Shown here piece by piece: positions 24,704 through 62,198 of a stretch of DNA of 64,000 nucleotides. A program made the position numbers and the translations under genes. Location: the IMG/VR virus record IMGVR_UViG_3300044640_001495, positions 1 through 64,000 of that record, one strand, 5' to 3'. Below the pieces are notes generated by a model, which made no database searches, was not told where the DNA came from, and worked only from the letters and a program-made list of their open reading frames with translations. The first letter of the stretch is position 1; the number at the start of each line of letters is the position of its first letter. This DNA comes from a virus.

Positions 24704-24907
24704 ATGGTAACAGGAAAAGTAAAATGGTTTAACGACGCCAAAGGTTTTGGATTCATTACTCCGGACGATGGTGGCGCAGACTTATTTGCTCACTTTTCAC
24801 AGATTAATTCGAGTGGCTTCAAGAGCCTACAAGAAGGACAAAGTGTAAGGTTTGAAGTGACTCAGGGTCAAAAAGGCGAGCAGGCTAGTAATATTCAAGC
24901 TGCCTAA
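24704..24907 (+). CDS. csp: Cold-shock domain protein
   Basis: The protein has 67 residues and both RNA-binding motifs: KGFGFITP (RNP1) and DLFAHFSQI (RNP2). The length and the start [14 protein letters not shown] match CspA. It is an RNA chaperone that could melt phage mRNA structure. It lies directly upstream of the tmRNA acceptor half, possibly in the same transcript. The leader is A-rich with AAGGAAA. Confidence 0.93.
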
Positions 24908-24914
24908 AAAATTG

Positions 24915-25262
24915 TTGTAGAAGTCTTAAAGTAAGGCATTCTGGACGCGGGTTCGACTCCCGCCAGGTCCACCATAAAGGAGATTAGTATGGATAACGAA
25001 TATAGTGCTCTAGTTGGCTTTATTGTTGTTATCGTAGTATTTGCTCTAGTCCTTTTATGATGGGCCTGCCATGGTTTCGACAGGGTGAGATAGGATAAAG
25101 ATCAACACGTGGGGTCACGTAAAATACAAAAAACGTAAATGCAAACGCAGATACATTCGACTTCAGCGCAATGAGCTTCACTGGAAACACTGTTTCCGGC
25201 AAAAGCAAAGTTGCTCTAGCTGCCTAAAAAACAGCGGTCCGAGGTAGTTATACCTTGTCATC
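24915..25262 (+). ncRNA. ssrA: Circularly permuted (two-piece) tmRNA
   Basis: The acceptor half comes first: T-arm GCGGG-TTCGACT-CCCGC (24947-24963), acceptor strand CAGGTCC and ACCA (24964-24974). The coding half starts with GGGCCTG (25062-25068), which pairs over all 7 positions (one G-U) with CAGGTCC, followed by the tmRNA signature TTCGACAGGG. The tag frame runs from the resume codon GCA at 25141 to TAA at 25227 and encodes 28 residues, starting ANADTFDF and ending in the proteolysis signal ALAA. A PK1-like hairpin (ACGTG-GGGT-CACGT) lies between. The order acceptor-spacer-coding is that of permuted ssrA genes. The outer ends (24915 and 25262) are estimates. Confidence 0.92.
24989..25060 (+). 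CDS. 23-aa membrane peptide inside the tmRNA intervening segment
   Basis: Between the two tmRNA halves lies AAAGGAG, 7 bases later an ATG, and 23 codons ending in TGA two bases before the coding half starts. The peptide MDNEYSALVGFIVVIVVFAL and three more residues is one hydrophobic helix with an acidic N-terminus. It fills the segment that is removed during maturation of a permuted tmRNA. Expression is unproven, but ribosome site, spacing and composition all look designed. Confidence 0.6.
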   Translation: MDNEYSALVGFIVVIVVFALVLL

Positions 25263-25273
25263 CAAAATAGCAG

Positions 25274-25298
25274 AACCCGCTTCGGCGGGTTTCTTTTT
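25274..25298 (+). terminator. Rho-independent terminator of the tmRNA
   Basis: AACCCGC-TTCG-GCGGGTT followed by TCTTTTT ends the tmRNA transcription unit. Confidence 0.92.
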
Positions 25299-34555: not shown

Positions 34556-36457
34556 ATGTCTAAGATCATCGGTATCGATTTAGGTACCACAAACTCATGT
34601 GTAGCTGTTATTGAAAACGGCATCCCCAAAGTAATTGAAAATGCAGAAGGTGCTAGAACAACACCTTCAATCGTTGCCTACGGCAAAGATGAAATTCTCG
34701 TAGGTGCTTCAGCAAAACGTCAATCAGTTACTAACCCCAAAAATACAATCTATGCTTCAAAGCGTTTGATTGGACGCAAGTTTAAAGAGGAAGCTGTTCA
34801 AAAGGACATCAACCTTATGCCCTACGAAATCATGGAAGCCAAGAATGGCGATGCATGGGTTCGTGCTAATGGTCAAGAGTTGGCGCCTCCACAAATCTCA
34901 GCAGAAGTTTTGCGTAAGATGAAAAAGACAGCGGAGGATTATCTAGGTCATGAAGTTACTCAAGCAGTTATCACAGTTCCTGCGTACTTTAACGACAGCC
35001 AAAGACAAGCTACTAAAGACGCTGGACAAATCGCAGGCCTGGAGGTACTCCGTATTATTAACGAGCCTACTGCGGCAGCTCTTGCTTATGGCGTTGATAA
35101 AGCTGATAAAAGAGATAGGAAAATTGCTGTTTACGATCTTGGTGGCGGTACATTCGATGTTTCGATCATCGAAATAGCCAACGTAGATGGAGACAAGCAG
35201 ATCGAAGTATTGAGCACAAACGGCGATACATTCCTTGGCGGTGAAGACTTTGACCAACGTATTATGGATTACTTGGTTGAAGAATTCCGCAAGGATCAAG
35301 GTGTTGATCTAACCAAAGATGTACTTGCTCTACAGCGTTTAAAAGAATCTGCTGAGAAGGCAAAAATTGAATTGTCTAGCTCTGCAAGCACAAGTGTTAA
35401 TTTGCCATACATCACAGCAGACGCAAGTGGCCCTAAGCACATGAATATCACTATTAGCCGTAGCAAGTTAGAACAGCTTGTTGACGAGTTAATCACTCGC
35501 TCAATTGAGCCATGTAAAGTTGCCATGAAAGATGCAGGTGTCACAGCCGCTGACATCGATGAAGTTATTCTTGTTGGTGGTATGACACGTATGCCAAAGG
35601 TACAAGAAGCCGTTGAAAAATTATTTGGCAAGGCACCACGTAAGGATGTTAATCCAGACGAAGCTGTTGCCGCAGGTGCCGCAGTACAAGGTGCTGTTCT
35701 CGGTGGCGATCGTACTGATGTGTTGTTGCTAGATGTGACTCCACTGAGTTTGGGTATTGAAACAATGGGCGGTGTGTTTGCAAAGGTTATTCAAAAGAAC
35801 ACAACCATTCCGACTAAGGGACAGCAGACATTCTCAACAGCAGAAGACAATCAACCTGCGGTGACTATCAAGGTATTCCAAGGTGAGCGTGATCTAGTAC
35901 AATACAACAAATTGCTAGGTGAATTCAATCTTGAAGGTATTCAACCGCAACGTCGTGGACAGCCGCAAATCGAAGTTACATTTGATATTGATGCTAACGG
36001 TATCATGAATATCTCGGCCAAGGACAAGAGCACAGGCAAAGAAAACAAGATCACTATTAAATCAGATAGCGGTCTAAGCAAAGAAGAAATTGAACGCATG
36101 GTACGTGAAGCTGAAGAAAATGCAGAGAGTGATCAAAAAGCTCGAACATTAATTGATGCTCGCAACCAAGCTGAAGCAACTGTACATGAAGTTAAAAAAG
36201 ATCTTGAAGAATTTAAAGATGAATTAACTGATACAGAAAAGACAGAAATCGAGACAGCAGTTAAATCAGTCGAAGACGCTATGAAAGAAGATGACGCTGA
36301 TAAAATTAAAGCTGAACTCGAAAAAGTTTTTCCGGCAATGAAAACATTGTTGGAGAAAAAGCAGGCCAAGGAACAGGCAGCTCAGGCGCCTCAACCAGAA
36401 GCCAAAGCAGATGACAATGTGGTAGACGCTACGTTTACAGAAACTAAGTCTAGCTAA
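34556..36457 (+). CDS. dnaK: Chaperone DnaK (Hsp70)
   Basis: The 633 residues are full length. [14 protein letters not shown] is phosphate loop 1, [15 protein letters not shown] loop 2, and [14 protein letters not shown] the adenosine motif; the substrate domain contains [14 protein letters not shown] and ends with an acidic lid tail. The C-terminal EEVD-like end of bacterial DnaK is replaced by [11 protein letters not shown] complete Hsp70 is rare in phages. DnaJ and GrpE are not in the window, so host co-chaperones are probably used. It heads a group with Hsp20 and ClpS under a late promoter. Confidence 0.97.
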
Positions 36458-58124: not shown

Positions 58125-58213
58125 GGACGAGTGCGCTGAATTGGTTGAAGGCAACGGACTGTAAATCCGCCACATAAGAAACATTGTAGGTTCGACTCCT
58201 ACCTCGTCCACCA
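58125..58213 (+). tRNA. tRNA-Tyr (GTA)
   Basis: Acceptor GGACGAG/CTCGTCC, anticodon loop CTGTAAA, class II variable arm, encoded CCA. Confidence 0.92.
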
Positions 58214-58222
58214 AACGAATGG

Positions 58223-58251
58223 TTGACTTTTTTTTGGATTGGTGTTATACT
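58223..58251 (+). promoter_or_regulatory. Early sigma70-type promoter inside the tRNA array
   Basis: TTGACT and TATACT are 17 bases apart, just after tRNA-Tyr and before the protein gene at 58282. Confidence 0.7.
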
Positions 58252-58281
58252 ATTAATACTGTGAACTTAAAAGGAAATCAA

Positions 58282-58476
58282 ATGCAATCGTATCGTGTTT
58301 ATGTTGAAGTGGGTTCGTATGCAGGTGAAGGTACCAGCGGTGCTTTTCAAACTGAGAGCCTTCGACAATTTGAAACTGTAGTAAATGCCCAGACATCCGG
58401 AGATGCTGTGCGTATAGCAGAAGCCCAATATGGTGGCCAAGAACGGTGCCGTGTCACGTTCCGCGGCGTTGCTTAA
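58282..58476 (+). CDS. Small protein, 64 aa, within the tRNA array
   Basis: AAAGGAAA precedes the ATG. The product MQSYRVYVEVGSYAGEGTSG, then LRQFETVVNAQTSGDAVRIA and EAQYGGQERCRVTFRGVA, has a small alpha/beta pattern like ribosome-associated or RNA-binding peptides. The function is unknown. tRNA-Asp begins 9 bases after the stop. Confidence 0.6.
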   Translation: MQSYRVYVEVGSYAGEGTSGAFQTESLRQFETVVNAQTSGDAVRIAEAQYGGQERCRVTFRGVA

Positions 58477-58484
58477 CAATTTTA

Positions 58485-58559
58485 GGTCTGTTCGTATAGA
58501 GGTTATTACTGCGGATTGTCTATCCGCTTACGGGGGTTCGATTCCCCCACAGACCGCCA
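58485..58559 (+). tRNA. tRNA-Asp (GTC)
   Basis: Acceptor GGTCTGT/ACAGACC, anticodon stem GCGGA/TCCGC with loop TTGTCTA, discriminator G, encoded CCA. Confidence 0.92.
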
Positions 58560-58566
58560 AGTTTAT

Positions 58567-58643
58567 TCCTCGGTAGCACAGTTGGTAGTTGCGCGGCACT
58601 GTTAATGCCGATGTCGGAAGTTCGAGCCTTCCCCGGGGAGCCA
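58567..58643 (+). tRNA. tRNA-Asn (GTT)
   Basis: Acceptor TCCTCGG/CCGGGGA, anticodon loop CTGTTAA, T-loop TTCGAGC, encoded CCA. Confidence 0.88.
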
Positions 58644-58648
58644 ATAAT

Positions 58649-58724
58649 GTATCCTTAGCTCAATTGGCAGAGCGCTGGTCTCCAAAACCAGAGGTTCGCG
58701 GTTCGAGGCCGTGAGGGTACGCCA
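58649..58724 (+). tRNA. tRNA-Trp (CCA)
   Basis: Acceptor GTATCCT/AGGGTAC, anticodon stem CTGGT/ACCAG with loop CTCCAAA, discriminator G, encoded CCA. Confidence 0.92.
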
Positions 58725-58732
58725 AGTTTTAT

Positions 58733-58807
58733 GGACCGTTCGTCTATCGGTTAGGACACTAGGTTTTCATCCTGGTAAGAGGGGTTCGACTCCCCTACGG
58801 TCTTCCA
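58733..58807 (+). tRNA. tRNA-Glu (TTC)
   Basis: Acceptor GGACCGT/ACGGTCT, anticodon loop TTTTCAT, T-arm GGGG-TTCGACT-CCCC, encoded CCA. Confidence 0.9.
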
Positions 58808-58814
58808 AATTTAT

Positions 58815-58892
58815 GTGGCGGTGGCAGAGAGGCCCATTGCAACGGATTGCAAATCCGTAAAATCGTGAGTTCAAATCTCACCCGCCACTCCA
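58815..58892 (+). tRNA. tRNA-Cys (GCA)
   Basis: Acceptor GTGGCGG/CCGCCAC, anticodon stem ACGGA/TCCGT with loop TTGCAAA, discriminator T as expected for Cys, encoded CCA. Confidence 0.9.
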
Positions 58893-58897
58893 AACAT

Positions 58898-58942
58898 GGC
58901 TCCACTCGTTCGACATAGTCGATGCTGTGGAGTTTTTCTTTT
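58898..58942 (+). terminator. Rho-independent terminator within the tRNA array
   Basis: CTCCAC (58900) pairs with GTGGAG (58927), with an inner TCGAC/GTCGA stem, followed by TTTTTCTTTT. It would end or attenuate the first tRNA transcript before tRNA-Leu. Confidence 0.8.
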
Positions 58943-59023
58943 GCCCCGGTAGACAAATTGGCAAAGTCGTCTCTCTCAAAAAGAGAAATTTAAATGCGGG
59001 TTCAACTCCCGCCCGGGGTACCA
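58943..59023 (+). tRNA. tRNA-Leu (CAA)
   Basis: Acceptor GCCCCGG/CCGGGGT, anticodon stem TCTCT/AGAGA with loop CTCAAAA, encoded CCA. The variable arm is short for Leu (about 9 bases). Confidence 0.85.
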
Positions 59024-59028
59024 ATCAT

Positions 59029-59118
59029 GGAAGTATGGCTGAGCATGGCTTAAGGCAGCAGTCTTGAAAACTGAAGGCTCGAAAGGGTCCGTGGGTTCGA
59101 ATCCTACTACTTCCGCCA
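59029..59118 (+). tRNA. tRNA-Ser (TGA)
   Basis: Acceptor GGAAGTA/TACTTCC, anticodon loop CTTGAAA, long variable arm (GGCTCGAAAGGGTCC), discriminator G, encoded CCA. Confidence 0.92.
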
Positions 59119-59123
59119 ACTAT

Positions 59124-59231
59124 GGACGAATCATTTGAGCAGTGTTAGATGCACACGGGTTACCTTTCCTAACCGCCAAGTGGCGTACCCCTGCCGAATG
59201 ACCTGGGCGTGGCAGTGATAATGATTCGTCC
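59124..59231 (+). ncRNA. Candidate stem-closed spacer RNA between tRNA-Ser and tRNA-Ile
   Basis: A perfect 12-bp stem (GGACGAATCATT with AATGATTCGTCC) encloses 84 bases that fold into further hairpins: GGTTA/TAACC, CGCC-AAGT-GGCG, and CTGCC/GGCAG. It fills the 122-base spacer. No ORF. Processing of the flanking tRNAs would release it as a compact RNA. I know no family with this shape. Confidence 0.6.
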
Positions 59232-59240
59232 GCCTAATAC

Positions 59241-59315
59241 AGCCTATTAGCTCAGTGGTAGAGCACCGTCTTGATAAGGCGGGGGTCCTTGGATCGTTCC
59301 CAAGATAGGCTACCA
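59241..59315 (+). tRNA. tRNA-Ile (GAT)
   Basis: Acceptor AGCCTAT/ATAGGCT, anticodon loop TTGATAA, discriminator A, encoded CCA. Confidence 0.92.
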
Positions 59316-59337
59316 ATTTTTTAAAAGGAGATCTGTC

Positions 59338-59382
59338 ATGACTAGTGACAAGAGTGATAAGATAACGGGGGTGAAACTTTAA
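59338..59382 (+). CDS. Possible 14-codon mini-ORF reading into tRNA-Lys
   Basis: AAAAGGAG lies 7 bases before ATG at 59338. The frame encodes MTSDKSDKITGVKL and stops 16 bases into tRNA-Lys. It may be a translated leader or a chance ORF behind a relict ribosome site. Confidence 0.25.
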   Translation: MTSDKSDKITGVKL

Positions 59383-59440
59383 GGTGAAGTAACTGGCTTT
59401 TAACCAGTAAAACTCGGATCGTTCCCGAGCACCCCTACCA
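59367..59440 (+). tRNA. tRNA-Lys (TTT)
   Basis: Acceptor GGGGGTG/CACCCCT (first pair G-U), anticodon stem ACTGG/CCAGT with loop CTTTTAA, encoded CCA. Confidence 0.9.
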
Positions 59441-59521
59441 TATAAAAACACATTAGGCCTGGTCATAGACCATCGCGGGTATAGTGCCTTCCGTGCCGCG
59501 GACTTGAGTGTGTTTTTATAT
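59441..59521 (+). ncRNA. Candidate stem-closed spacer RNA between tRNA-Lys and tRNA-Met
   Basis: The spacer starts at the base after the tRNA-Lys CCA and ends at the base before tRNA-Met. Its ends form a perfect 12-bp stem (59441-59452 with 59509-59520) that continues 5 bp into the tRNA ends (TACCA with TGGTA), 17 bp in all. Inside are GGTC-ATA-GACC and CGCGG/CCGCG stems. Cleavage at the tRNA ends would release an 81-base RNA. Confidence 0.65.
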
Positions 59522-59597
59522 GGTAATATAGCATAGTGGCTAATGCAGTTGCTTCATACGCAGCCTATCGTTGGTTCGAGTCCAACTATTACCACCA
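59522..59597 (+). tRNA. tRNA-Met (CAT), elongator type
   Basis: Acceptor GGTAATA/TATTACC with a normal first pair, anticodon loop TTCATAC, no initiator GGG/CCC stem; encoded CCA. A lysidine-modified Ile2 role cannot be excluded. Confidence 0.9.
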
Positions 59598-59603
59598 AGT
59601 TGT

Positions 59604-59677
59604 TGGGGGTTAGTTAAATGGTATAACCGCGGATTTTGATTCCGCTATTAAAGGTTCGATTCCTTTACCCTCTGCCA
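59604..59677 (+). tRNA. tRNA-Gln (TTG)
   Basis: Anticodon stem GCGGA/TCCGC with loop TTTTGAT, discriminator G, encoded CCA. The first acceptor pair is unpaired (T-T); weak 1-72 pairs are typical of tRNA-Gln. Confidence 0.88.
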
Positions 59678-59685
59678 AAAAATAA

Positions 59686-59760
59686 CGGTCCTTAGTTCAA
59701 TGGATAGAATGCTTGGCTTCGAACCAAGCGGTGTGGGTTCGATTCCTGCAGGACCGGCCA
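59686..59760 (+). tRNA. tRNA-Arg (TCG)
   Basis: Acceptor CGGTCCT/AGGACCG, anticodon stem CTTGG/CCAAG with loop CTTCGAA, discriminator G, encoded CCA. Confidence 0.92.
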
Positions 59761-59761
59761 A

Positions 59762-60433
59762 CTAGATAATAGTAGATAGTTCAGCAGGAGTTAACTTAGG
59801 TGGCTCTGGAAAAGGACGTGGATCAGAAAACCCAACTGTTGTTGGTCCGTTGTTTACCGTTTCTCTTACTCGAGAGTCATTGGGTTGGCCAACAGATAGA
59901 AACACAATGGGCCATTCATTTTCTGCAAGACCTAAAATCTTGTGAGCTTGGTCTTCGAAAAAGCATGATGTAAAGGCAGTACGATATCCTAGAGATTCTG
60001 CTTGTATCATAGAAAAACTAGCAGCAATCATTGTATCTTTTTCAGAACGTGTTCGAACAGTATATTGTGTTTTAGGATCAGCAGATCTAGAAGATACATT
60101 TATTCCTTGTTCACGTACTGTAGTACCATTAGAAACAAGACCTAGGTCAAAGTTGTCTAAGATAGGAACTCCTATCCATGCTAACAGTAAAGGTGATTGG
60201 GCTGTTAGTAAATGTTTACGAATTGGCATGTTAATGAAACTGTCTAAGAACAGTTTATTTTTTAATTCAAGAGCTTTGTGGCTTTGAGTTAATGCAATAA
60301 CACGCCAAGGATATGCACGTTGCTTACTAGGGGCTGAACAACCAGCTGTTAGTATTGAGTCAATATGCTCTTGAGGTATAGCGTCATTAGTAAATGCTCG
60401 CTGTGTTCGTCGATTTAAAAAGATGTCTAACAT
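59762..60433 (-). CDS. Nitroreductase-family flavoprotein
   Basis: The 223 residues start at ATG 60433 (a TTG lies just before). The family pattern is visible: FLNRRTQRAFTNDAIPQEHI, SAPSKQRAYPWRVIALT (FMN-binding), then AASFSMIQAESLGYRTAFTS and LGLAENEWPIVFLSVG. It would reduce quinones, nitro compounds or flavins with NAD(P)H, or break down a flavin. It lies antisense to and inside the plus-strand tRNA array, ending 2 bases after tRNA-Arg, which suggests an insertion. The late box is in leaderless position. Confidence 0.8.
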   Translation of the reverse strand: MLDIFLNRRTQRAFTNDAIPQEHIDSILTAGCSAPSKQRAYPWRVIALTQSHKALELKNKLFLDSFINMPIRKHLLTAQSPLLLAWIGVPILDNFDLGLVSNGTTVREQGINVSSRSADPKTQYTVRTRSEKDTMIAASFSMIQAESLGYRTAFTSCFFEDQAHKILGLAENEWPIVFLSVGQPNDSRVRETVNNGPTTVGFSDPRPFPEPPKLTPAELSTII

Positions 60434-60437
60434 CAAG

Positions 60438-60445
60438 TATTTATT
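60438..60445 (-). promoter_or_regulatory. T4-type late box (AATAAATA), leaderless spacing
   Basis: The minus-strand box ends 4 bases before the nitroreductase ATG (60433). It lies 3 bases from the plus-strand tRNA-like gene at 60448. Confidence 0.55.
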
Positions 60446-60447
60446 TT

Positions 60448-60521
60448 ATCGCTGTAGTGAAAAGATATCACAAGACCCTGCGAAGGTCTAAGTCCACGTT
60501 CAACTCGTGGCAGCGATACCA
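60448..60521 (+). tRNA. Atypical tRNA-Arg-like gene (GCG anticodon)
   Basis: Acceptor ATCGCTG/CAGCGAT, anticodon stem AGACC/GGTCT with loop CTGCGAA, T-arm CCACG/CGTGG and CCA are good. The D-arm GTGA/TCAC encloses AAAGATA and lacks the usual GG. Anticodon GCG for Arg is rare in bacteria, which use ACG. Confidence 0.65.
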
Positions 60522-60591
60522 AAATTAGTAAAATTCTATTACGTAAGATCCAAGCAAAGTGCAAGGATTGGCCATAACAAGGAGATATAAA

Positions 60592-60798
60592 ATGAAACCT
60601 ATTACTTTTAAAAATCGTTTAAACAACGAACGAGTAGTCTGTGAAGATTCTCGTCAAACTCAGAATATAGATGGCGTTGAGTATCTCTTGGTTCATCGCC
60701 CTGACAATCAACGACAGTTCCTTATGCGTAAGGATGTGTTAGAAAAAGTTAATGGTGTTGGTAGTGTAGTGGCTGCACGGCTGTCTGTGAAACAGTAA
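60592..60798 (+). CDS. Small protein whose 3' end overlaps tRNA-His, 68 aa
   Basis: ATG at 60592 follows AAGGAGATATAA. The first 52 residues (MKPITFKNRLNNERVVCEDS, then IDGVEYLLVHRPDNQRQFLM, RKDVLEKV) look like a real protein; I recall this type in T4-like phages. The last 15 codons are encoded by the 5' half of tRNA-His (60754 on). The function is unknown. Confidence 0.6.
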   Translation: MKPITFKNRLNNERVVCEDSRQTQNIDGVEYLLVHRPDNQRQFLMRKDVLEKVNGVGSVVAARLSVKQ

Positions 60799-60827
60799 GA
60801 GAGAGTTCGATTCTCCCCTTCACCCCA
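60754..60827 (+). tRNA. tRNA-His (GTG)
   Basis: Anticodon loop CTGTGAA and encoded CCA. It fits with an encoded G-1 opposite C73; the acceptor has two T-T mismatches and the T-stem one mismatch, so it is degenerate. It overlaps the end of the upstream protein gene. Confidence 0.75.
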
Positions 60828-60829
60828 AT

Positions 60830-60905
60830 GCCGCTTTAGCTGATGTGGTCATAGCACCGGTTTGAAGAACCGAGGAACTAGGTTCGATCCCTAGAGGCGG
60901 CACCA
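60830..60905 (+). tRNA. tRNA-Phe (GAA)
   Basis: Acceptor GCCGCTT/AGGCGGC, anticodon loop TTGAAGA, discriminator A, encoded CCA. Confidence 0.9.
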
Positions 60906-60911
60906 AGATAT

Positions 60912-60995
60912 GTGAGCGTGGTGGAATGGTATACACAGCAGACTTAAAATCTGCCGCCTTCGGGATTGAGGGTTCAAGTCCCTCCGCTCATACCA
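60912..60995 (+). tRNA. tRNA-Leu (TAA)
   Basis: Acceptor GTGAGCG/CGCTCAT, anticodon stem GCAGA/TCTGC with loop CTTAAAA, class II variable arm CGCCTTCGGGATT, encoded CCA. Confidence 0.92.
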
Positions 60996-61002
60996 AATAA
61001 AT

Positions 61003-61094
61003 GCCAGCGAGACTTGGTAGTCAGAGAGGTTTTATAAACCTTTTAGCGCCAGATTAGCGTTCTTGAGAGGGTTCGATTCCCTCCGCTGGTACCA
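61003..61094 (+). tRNA. Class II tRNA with TAT anticodon (Ile AUA?)
   Basis: Acceptor GCCAGCG/CGCTGGT, T-arm GAGGG/CCCTC and CCA are good. The anticodon stem GAGGT/ACCTT has loop TTTATAA, giving TAT. A long variable arm (stem AGCGC with GCGTT) makes it class II, unexpected for Ile. The D-loop is short (TTGGTA). Confidence 0.65.
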
Positions 61095-61124
61095 AATTAT
61101 TTTATAAGTTTTTTCATAAAGTTG

Positions 61125-61153
61125 TTGACACACAGGTGATTAGACTATATAAT
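61125..61153 (+). promoter_or_regulatory. Perfect early promoter inside the tRNA array
   Basis: TTGACA and TATAAT are exactly 17 bases apart, 22 bases before tRNA-Leu(TAG). It makes the last tRNA block a separate transcript. Confidence 0.85.
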
Positions 61154-61175
61154 GTATATTATTAGTTAGAAATTT

Positions 61176-61259
61176 GCGCAAGTGGTGGAATGGTATACAC
61201 GCTGGTCTTAGAAGCCAGTGCCGAAAGGATTGAGAGTTCGAGTCTCTCCTTGCGCACCA
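61176..61259 (+). tRNA. tRNA-Leu (TAG)
   Basis: Acceptor GCGCAAG/CTTGCGC, anticodon loop CTTAGAA, class II variable arm GCCGAAAGGATT, encoded CCA. Confidence 0.92.
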
Positions 61260-61266
61260 TAGTTTA

Positions 61267-61342
61267 GGGTTCTTAGCTCAGTTGGTAGAGCGTCTGCCTT
61301 ACACGCAGAATGTCGTCAGTTCGACCCTGGCAGAACCCACCA
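61267..61342 (+). tRNA. tRNA-Val (TAC)
   Basis: Acceptor GGGTTCT/AGAACCC, anticodon stem TCTGC/GCAGA with loop CTTACAC, discriminator A, encoded CCA. Confidence 0.92.
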
Positions 61343-61350
61343 AGCAACAC

Positions 61351-61438
61351 GGAGCATTGGCCGACCGGTTAAGGCAACAGATTGCTAATCTGTCATTCAG
61401 TAATGGGTGAGTAGGTTCGATTCCTACATGCTCCGCCA
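61351..61438 (+). tRNA. tRNA-Ser (GCT)
   Basis: Acceptor GGAGCAT/ATGCTCC, anticodon stem ACAGA/TCTGT with loop TTGCTAA, class II variable arm, discriminator G, encoded CCA. Confidence 0.92.
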
Positions 61439-61440
61439 TA

Positions 61441-61600
61441 ACGTTCCGAGTGTCTTCGGATAGTGTGACCCACACGATGAGAAGTAGTGTGACAACTACG
61501 GGTGGTAGTCTTTAAACCCAAAGGCCGCTAGCAATGCGAGAACGGTCCCTGTCGGGAAGCGGGTGGAAGGTACGAGTGAGGGGTATGATAGCGTCATATC
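61441..61600 (+). ncRNA. Candidate structured RNA between tRNA-Ser and the 61663 gene
   Basis: No ORF. Hairpins in order: TCCGA/TCGGA (61445-61460), GTGTG/CACAC (61463-61475), GTAG/CTAC (61484-61499), then a GGTCC/GGG-rich region and TATGA-TAGCG-TCATA near 61590. The remaining bases to 61662 hold AATAAAGGAAA as ribosome site for the next gene. The family is not recognised. Confidence 0.5.
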
Positions 61601-61662
61601 TTTCTGTACTATAATTACCGCCGGGGGATGCAGAGCAACCAGATTTTAATAAAGGAAATACA

Positions 61663-61875
61663 ATGAAACCAGGTCCAAATTATAGAATGAGTGCTTTGAC
61701 TAAAGCAAGTCTAGCAATGAGTAGAGTTCTAGATCCGCACAAACGAGGTGAATGGAAACGTGCTATGATTGATGCTGAACTATGTGCTGCCGTGGTGCCA
61801 AAACGTGAACCACGCAAACAGGGAGGTGGTAATTTTACCACTCATGCATCCGGAACAGTATCCAGTGGAGGCTAA
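61663..61875 (+). CDS. Small basic protein, 70 aa
   Basis: AAAGGAAA precedes the ATG. The product MKPGPNYRMSALTKASLAMS, then RGEWKRAMIDAELCAAVVPK, has a Lys/Arg-rich middle and a Gly/Ser/Thr tail (RKQGGGNFTTHASGTVSSGG). It may bind RNA. One base separates it from the next gene. Confidence 0.6.
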   Translation: MKPGPNYRMSALTKASLAMSRVLDPHKRGEWKRAMIDAELCAAVVPKREPRKQGGGNFTTHASGTVSSGG

Positions 61876-61876
61876 C

Positions 61877-62026
61877 ATGCAAGTTCGAGTTAAAGAAAAT
61901 GCAGATCAGGTTGGTAAGTGTGGTTGCGGTCGTTCGCCTACTGGTAAGTGCATCGGTTGGCACGGACTAACCGAACAAGCATTTAAAGAAAAACTTCAAG
62001 AGTATAAACTCAACGAAGGTAAGTAA
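61877..62026 (+). CDS. CDGSH-like small metal-binding protein, 49 aa
   Basis: Residues 14-31 read KCGCGRSPTGKCIGWHGL: C-x-C-x7-C-x-G-x-H. This closely resembles the CDGSH iron-sulfur motif (C-x-C ... C-D-G-x-H), with I for D. I recall the motif CGCGRSPTGKCxGWH in other phage and bacterial small proteins. It may bind a 2Fe-2S cluster or zinc. tRNA-Ala starts 7 bases after the stop. Confidence 0.7.
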   Translation: MQVRVKENADQVGKCGCGRSPTGKCIGWHGLTEQAFKEKLQEYKLNEGK

Positions 62027-62032
62027 AATATT

Positions 62033-62107
62033 GGGCTGTTGGTATAGATGGGAACACAGTAGCTTTGCAAGCTTCAATCCCCGGTTCGATCCCGGGACGG
62101 TCCACCA
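62033..62107 (+). tRNA. tRNA-Ala (TGC)
   Basis: Acceptor GGGCTGT/ACGGTCC (two G-U pairs; tRNA-Ala normally has a G3-U70, here G3-T70), anticodon loop TTTGCAA, encoded CCA. Confidence 0.9.
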
Positions 62108-62124
62108 AGTTTTAAGTAAGTATT

Positions 62125-62198
62125 GCCCCTTTAGTATAATGGTATTACACCTGTTTTGTAATCAGGTTACGGCAGTTCGATTCTGTCAAGGGGCACCA
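62125..62198 (+). tRNA. tRNA-Thr (TGT)
   Basis: Acceptor GCCCCTT/AAGGGGC, anticodon loop TTTGTAA, T-arm with TTCGATT, encoded CCA. Confidence 0.9.

Follow-up and report, generated by a model that had tools for sequence, protein, structure and literature searches.

Permuted, two-piece tmRNAs are represented by the Rfam families RF04321, RF01850 and RF01849. In the described model the intervening segment (IVS) between the two pieces is a discarded spacer, and one publication mentions a tRNA-Ala in one tmRNA IVS and a repetitive element in another (PMC11915505). The word "ORF" was not found in that paper, and the word "intervening" is absent from the paper on the phage Melnitz (PMC9004378). Protein genes in removed parts of non-coding RNAs are known from group I introns with homing-endonuclease genes in tmRNA (PMC11915505) and from 23S rRNA, which can contain an IVS with an S23p ORF (PMC4990558). 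In Coxiella, the ORF in the 23S rRNA IVS is seemingly not expressed and decaying (PMC4990558). A search of the open-access literature revealed no description of an ORF in a tmRNA IVS, in agreement with the first-pass annotation, which knew of no described gene at such a position.

The window, i.e., the whole stretch of 64,000 nucleotides that was analyzed, is part of a 353,123-base IMG/VR virus contig of a jumbo phage, the terminase of which shares about 53% identity with the terminase of PA5oct-like phages. It contains a permuted tmRNA at positions 24913-25227 (Rfam RF04321, tmRNA_permuted, 120.5 bits versus a gathering threshold of 47). The covariance model places the acceptor half before the coding half, and ARAGORN likewise calls a permuted tmRNA. 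Gene order, CCA end, tag and the presumed loss of the IVS on maturation are shared with the described permuted tmRNAs, but here the IVS carries an ORF. The features of the locus are as follows:

24704-24907, plus strand: cold shock protein gene directly 5' of the tmRNA (PHROG 729, E 7e-23)
24913-24974, plus strand: acceptor (tRNA-3') half, ending in CCA (Rfam RF04321; sequence)
24975-25061, plus strand: IVS of 87 nt, apparently an exchangeable cassette (Rfam alignment and sequence; relatives with near-identical flanks have a different IVS)
24975-24987, plus strand: predicted 5' arm of the IVS-closing stem (own versus cross-family arm pairing, p = 2e-4, 19 coding clusters)
24976-24982, plus strand: Shine-Dalgarno-like (SD) motif AAAGGAG within the 5' arm (sequence; conserved across coding IVSs)
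24989-25060, plus strand: 23-codon ORF with a TGA stop, encoding MDNEYSALVGFIVVIVVFALVLL, which is predicted to form one membrane helix (pN/pS; permutation p = 0.007)
25046-25057, plus strand: predicted 3' arm of the closing stem, CUAGUCCUUUUA, coinciding with the final four codons (arm-pairing test; sequence)
25058-25061, plus strand: conserved UGAU, which can pair with ACCA (one C.A mismatch) and contains the stop UGA
25062-25227, plus strand: tmRNA coding half up to the tag stop (Rfam RF04321)
25141-25227, plus strand: tag reading frame, ANADTFDFSAMSFTGNTVSGKSKVALAA followed by a stop (ARAGORN)
25273-25292, plus strand: intrinsic-terminator-like hairpin 3' of the tmRNA (consensus scan)

With the mature ends taken from the family model, exactly 87 nt lie between the CCA end at 24974 and the mature start GGGCCUG at 25062. 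The segment reads TAAAGGAGATTAGT, ATG (24989), the remaining codons, TGA (25058-25060) and a final T (25061). The first-pass annotation had proposed that the spacer is nearly completely filled by AAAGGAG and a 23-codon ORF for one hydrophobic helix, with the stop one base from the mature coding half. The sequence and the Rfam borders bear this out in every part, and the peptide is indeed a single hydrophobic stretch. The stop position is in part a by-product of the ACCA-pairing RNA motif, because TGAT before the mature 5' end is common also in non-coding IVSs.

The tag ends in ALAA; it has 28 residues and contains the inverted repeat GGAAACActGTTTCC, the usual tag length being 10 (PMC11915505). 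The cold shock gene is a conserved tmRNA neighbor in many relatives (tblastn synteny). No SmpB gene was found in the same contig. When INPHARED was searched for close relatives of the tmRNA, the matches among the listed records were confined to the cold shock gene and the T-arm. Elsewhere in the window, positions 34556-36457 encode a protein that shares about 65% identity with sequences carrying the annotation chaperone DnaK, and a cluster of 23 tRNA genes is located at 58125-62198.

Pattern scans of IMG/VR phages for beta-type permuted tmRNAs yielded 220 distinct IVSs. An IVS was counted as coding when an SD-like motif was present, an ATG occurred in the first ~24 nt, and the reading frame had no stop before the final 16 nt. 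By this rule, 69 of the 220 are filled by an ORF that follows an SD; they group into 41 DNA clusters (at 75% similarity) and about 40 peptide families without mutual relationship. The coding form was favored by one of the seven scans, an effect limited by counting clusters. Chance expectation was derived from shuffled IVS interiors, with the first and last 8 nt kept and the length of the cluster representative used for binning. Coding clusters were in excess in all length classes, i.e., 7/71 versus 1.1 expected at 60-89 nt, 6/30 versus 0.3 at 90-119 nt, and 28/44 versus 0.24 at 120 nt and above. A smaller, earlier set had 43 coding versus 2.6 expected. Most other long IVSs also have an open frame under relaxed SD and start rules, and some of these look fortuitous. 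All 15 loci tested were confirmed by RF04321. Pattern scans of bacterial contigs gave no match; bacteria are poorly covered by them, as one scan required spacers of 75-105 nt, compared to the ~29 nt implied by the Rfam beta consensus. The observation made in the window is correct and, at the level of sequence, general, as it recurs in the permuted tmRNAs of many aquatic phages.

The non-coding form is the commoner one among the IVSs surveyed. Three non-coding IVSs of 79 nt (L110, L146, L150) contain a T-arm-like stretch, GTAGGTTCGAGTCCTAC, and resemble a degenerate tRNA; ARAGORN called no tRNA in the non-coding IVSs, these three included. Four others of about 62-85 nt (L022, L103, L214, L219; contigs up to 383 kb) contain two or three direct-repeat copies of AAATTTACTTTGGTATT.

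Selection on the ORFs was quantified as pN/pS (Nei-Gojobori proportions), and significance was determined by permuting alignment columns (floor p = 0.0005). The subfamily of the window peptide (TM23), which comprises only 5 distinct sequences, had a pN/pS of 0.24 in frame versus 0.80 and 0.90 off frame (p = 0.007). For the sister family TM24 (10 distinct sequences) the values were 0.19 in frame versus 0.90 and 5.1 off frame (p = 0.0005). In TM24 the in-frame value was 0.21 for codons 2-19, which excludes the stem arm, and 217/84/441 substitutions fell on the three codon positions. The family MKYTALCPxCF...GLTKHKCFSD (10 sequences) had 0.36 versus 2.3 and 0.9, and further, smaller families ranged from 0.09 to 0.8, the two highest values stemming from few, closely similar sequences. 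In total, six families reached p = 0.0005. By purifying selection in one reading frame, the window ORF is therefore a probable protein-coding gene.

The first-pass annotation had also looked to the spacers of related phages, for retention of the ORF as well as for selection on its codons. The selection was found; retention was incomplete, as the close relatives L223 and L043 lack the ORF. They have a structured RNA that replaces the whole segment, which points to cassette exchange and not to an eroded ORF. The window's upstream flank is 95-96% identical (about 550-590 aligned nt) to the flanks of L223 (61-nt non-coding IVS), L043 (53-nt non-coding IVS) and L278 (Cys-rich ORF).

Several pairs of phages document the exchange more closely. 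The flanks of L100 and L065 are nearly the same, with 2 mismatches in 4005 nt upstream and none in 3439 nt downstream (2 in 7.4 kb), yet their IVSs are unrelated, i.e., 82 nt with a membrane-peptide ORF and 101 nt with a Cys-rich ORF. L291, with a non-coding IVS of 122 nt, and L356, with a coding one of 209 nt, have flanks that are 99.4 and 99.5% identical, and for L150 (non-coding) and L238 (coding) the values are 98 and 97%; all pairs come from metagenome assemblies, so that a single pair could be a chimera at the conserved tmRNA halves. A flanking-gene tree of 52 loci required at least 13 changes between coding and non-coding IVSs and 33 cluster changes. Conversely, phages less than 86% identical in the upstream flank can have almost the same non-coding IVS. 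Unrelated IVSs in near-identical phages indicate that the IVS is exchanged as a cassette, and recombination in the conserved tmRNA halves is the probable route. Because some IVS is present in every permuted tmRNA, the process is replacement and not insertion. The evidence for codon selection is independent of the swaps.

The peptides themselves are diverse. An ORF of 44 aa in the IVS of L347 matches PHROG 13558 (E 9.8e-13), relatives of which are annotated in cyanophages as free-standing genes (tblastn 2e-9). The window peptide may be a toxin or antiholin, as the first-pass annotation had suggested, but a PHROG search with the peptides of 23 and 24 residues, which are too short to be informative, gave no match and speaks neither for nor against it. 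Likewise, tblastn of one 65-aa and one 61-aa IVS peptide against phage isolates gave no match. The structures predicted for two of the IVS proteins had low confidence, with mean pLDDT values of 56 and 63. Many of the about 40 families are single hydrophobic helices. As T-rich sequence tends to yield hydrophobic peptides by chance, a membrane role rests on the conservation and not on the hydrophobicity.

The ends of the IVS are predicted to form a stem that extends the acceptor stem via ACCA/UGAU, in which one C.A mismatch occurs. The two arms of a coding IVS pair with each other at -9.2 kcal/mol, compared to -6.0 kcal/mol when arms are combined across coding clusters (p = 2e-4 by permutation, 19 clusters); in non-coding IVSs the values are -12.6 and -5.3 kcal/mol. 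In the coding form the SD lies inside the purine-rich 5' arm and the last codons lie in the 3' arm. The UGA of the UGAU is the stop codon in more than half of the coding clusters. No stop occurs within the IVS in 9 of 41 beta-type clusters, and the frame runs on into the mature coding half. The segment thus seems to be under two codes simultaneously, a processing stem and a mini-mRNA.

A second group of coding IVSs was found in alpha-type tmRNAs. In the cultured Methylophilales phage Melnitz (MZ577097) the permuted tmRNA is of the alpha type, and its IVS of 142 nt consists of the closing stem TAAACACTT/AAGTGTTTA, GGAG, ATG and 41 open codons continuing into the mature half; no CDS is listed for this ORF in MZ577097. 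Like the window tmRNA it is phage-encoded and permuted with an SD-preceded ORF in the IVS, but it is alpha-type, its ORF is unrelated, and there is no stop within the IVS. A pattern scan for tmRNAs of this shape retrieved 24 contigs; nearly all that were parsed are coding, most with the same layout, and nearly all coding loci, Melnitz included, lack a stop in the IVS. All four alpha-type loci tested were confirmed by Rfam as tmRNA_permuted and alpha_tmRNA. These marine alpha-type tmRNAs represent independent coding IVSs, and outside the stem arm their ORFs had pN/pS values of 0.31 (4 distinct sequences) and 0.53 (8). A glutamine riboswitch, described after the tmRNA for Melnitz (PMC9004378), lies directly 3' of the alpha-type tmRNA in L373 (6399-6447), L377 (13402-13456) and L388 (7133-7181). 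The isolates XacN1, SM1, PA_L9 and Marzo have permuted tmRNAs with non-coding, hairpin-like IVSs. In the records of Xanthomonas phage XacN1 (L369, AP018399.1) and Pseudomonas phage SM1 (L370, NC_041877.1) the tmRNA position is devoid of an annotated feature.

Taken together, the IVS of these tmRNAs is probably an exchangeable slot for small genes, in which a processing hairpin doubles as a translated mini-mRNA. The precursor would be transcribed in the order acceptor half, IVS, coding half, and the IVS would close on itself by the stem prolonging the acceptor stem, which is predicted and statistically supported. The purine-rich 5' arm of a coding cassette would act as SD, and the 3' arm with UGAU as the last codons and often the stop, so that one segment of 70-210 nt could serve both purposes. 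Ribosomes would use the precursor as message, or the IVS in the interval between its excision and its decay, and removal would occur by tRNA-type processing. The conserved tmRNA halves may function as homology arms, by which one IVS is replaced by another, coding or not; the replacement itself was observed by comparison. In the window the predicted product is a 23-residue membrane peptide, for which an accessory microprotein for host interaction is the best, though tentative, guess. That so many unrelated peptides, often single hydrophobic helices, occur at one position argues against one common function and fits an accessory slot better. It counts against the small-gene slot that the SD is paired in the predicted fold, which should lower initiation, that close relatives without the ORF exist, and that several families have no stop in the IVS.

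For these stop-less families a further step is conceivable, though rather unlikely. Cleavage at the mature 5' end would turn the excised IVS into a non-stop mRNA and thus a substrate of the just-released tmRNA, so that maturation and trans-translation would be wired to the IVS message. The IVS would then be a self-made substrate of the tmRNA or a feedback on its supply, and on the uncleaved precursor that ribosome would read on into the mature coding half.

The first-pass annotation had suggested that translation of the precursor could compete with or time tmRNA maturation, and the data neither support nor refute such timing. It is unlikely that translation of the IVS controls tmRNA maturation and the peptide itself matters little. 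The closing stem and UGAU/ACCA would hinder RNase P, and a ribosome moving from SD to UGA would open the stem and license cleavage, or a parked ribosome would block it. The location of SD and stop in or beside the two stem arms fits this model, and it gains plausibility from the finding that leader pairing with RCCA hinders RNase P (PMC9433436). However, selection acts on the amino-acid sequence, and the commoner non-coding IVSs have the stronger closing stems, so that tmRNAs evidently mature without such translation.

Still less likely is a selfish or passively drifting element like the rRNA intervening sequences, with ORFs gained and lost to no advantage of the phage. Excision from a non-coding RNA, complementary ends and flanks of very different relatedness would agree with it, and rRNA IVSs behave similarly (PMC4990558). 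Yet IVSs are replaced and not inserted, about 40 unrelated ORF families are under purifying selection, and no mobility protein was recognized among the IVS peptides scanned.

A fortuitous open frame in a segment constrained only as RNA (closing stem, UGAU) is very improbable and was rejected, as the placement of SD-like purines and UGA in these elements and the hydrophobic residues from T-rich codons are outweighed by the excess over shuffles, the frame-specific pN/pS outside the stem arms, the column permutation and the recognizable PHROG protein.

If the small-gene slot is real, permuted tmRNAs harbor a recurrent hidden site for phage small genes, which escapes gene finders because it lies under the tmRNA annotation. 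As IVS content differs between otherwise near-identical phages, its effect on infection can be tested directly, and Melnitz, the IVS of which is coding, is a cultured phage.

Two described systems invite comparison. Group I introns share with the phage IVSs a protein gene nested in a removed part of tmRNA, but they reside in the T-loop, splice themselves out with religation of the RNA, and code for nucleases (PMC11915505), whereas the phage IVSs have neither splicing nor a nuclease; no group I intron core was detected by Rfam at the gathering threshold in the window or 15 related loci. The closest precedent is the 23S rRNA IVS with the S23p ORF (PMC4990558), which also has an ORF in a segment cut from a non-coding RNA without ligation, complementary ends, which are predicted to form a stem in the window as well, and horizontal spread. 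It differs in host RNA, protein family and architecture. The S23p type is located in rRNA helices, is excised by RNase III and encodes a single protein family, whereas the window IVS lies in a tmRNA gene and not in 16S or 23S rRNA, and IVSs of its type encode about 40 selected families, with the SD and often the stop built into the stem.
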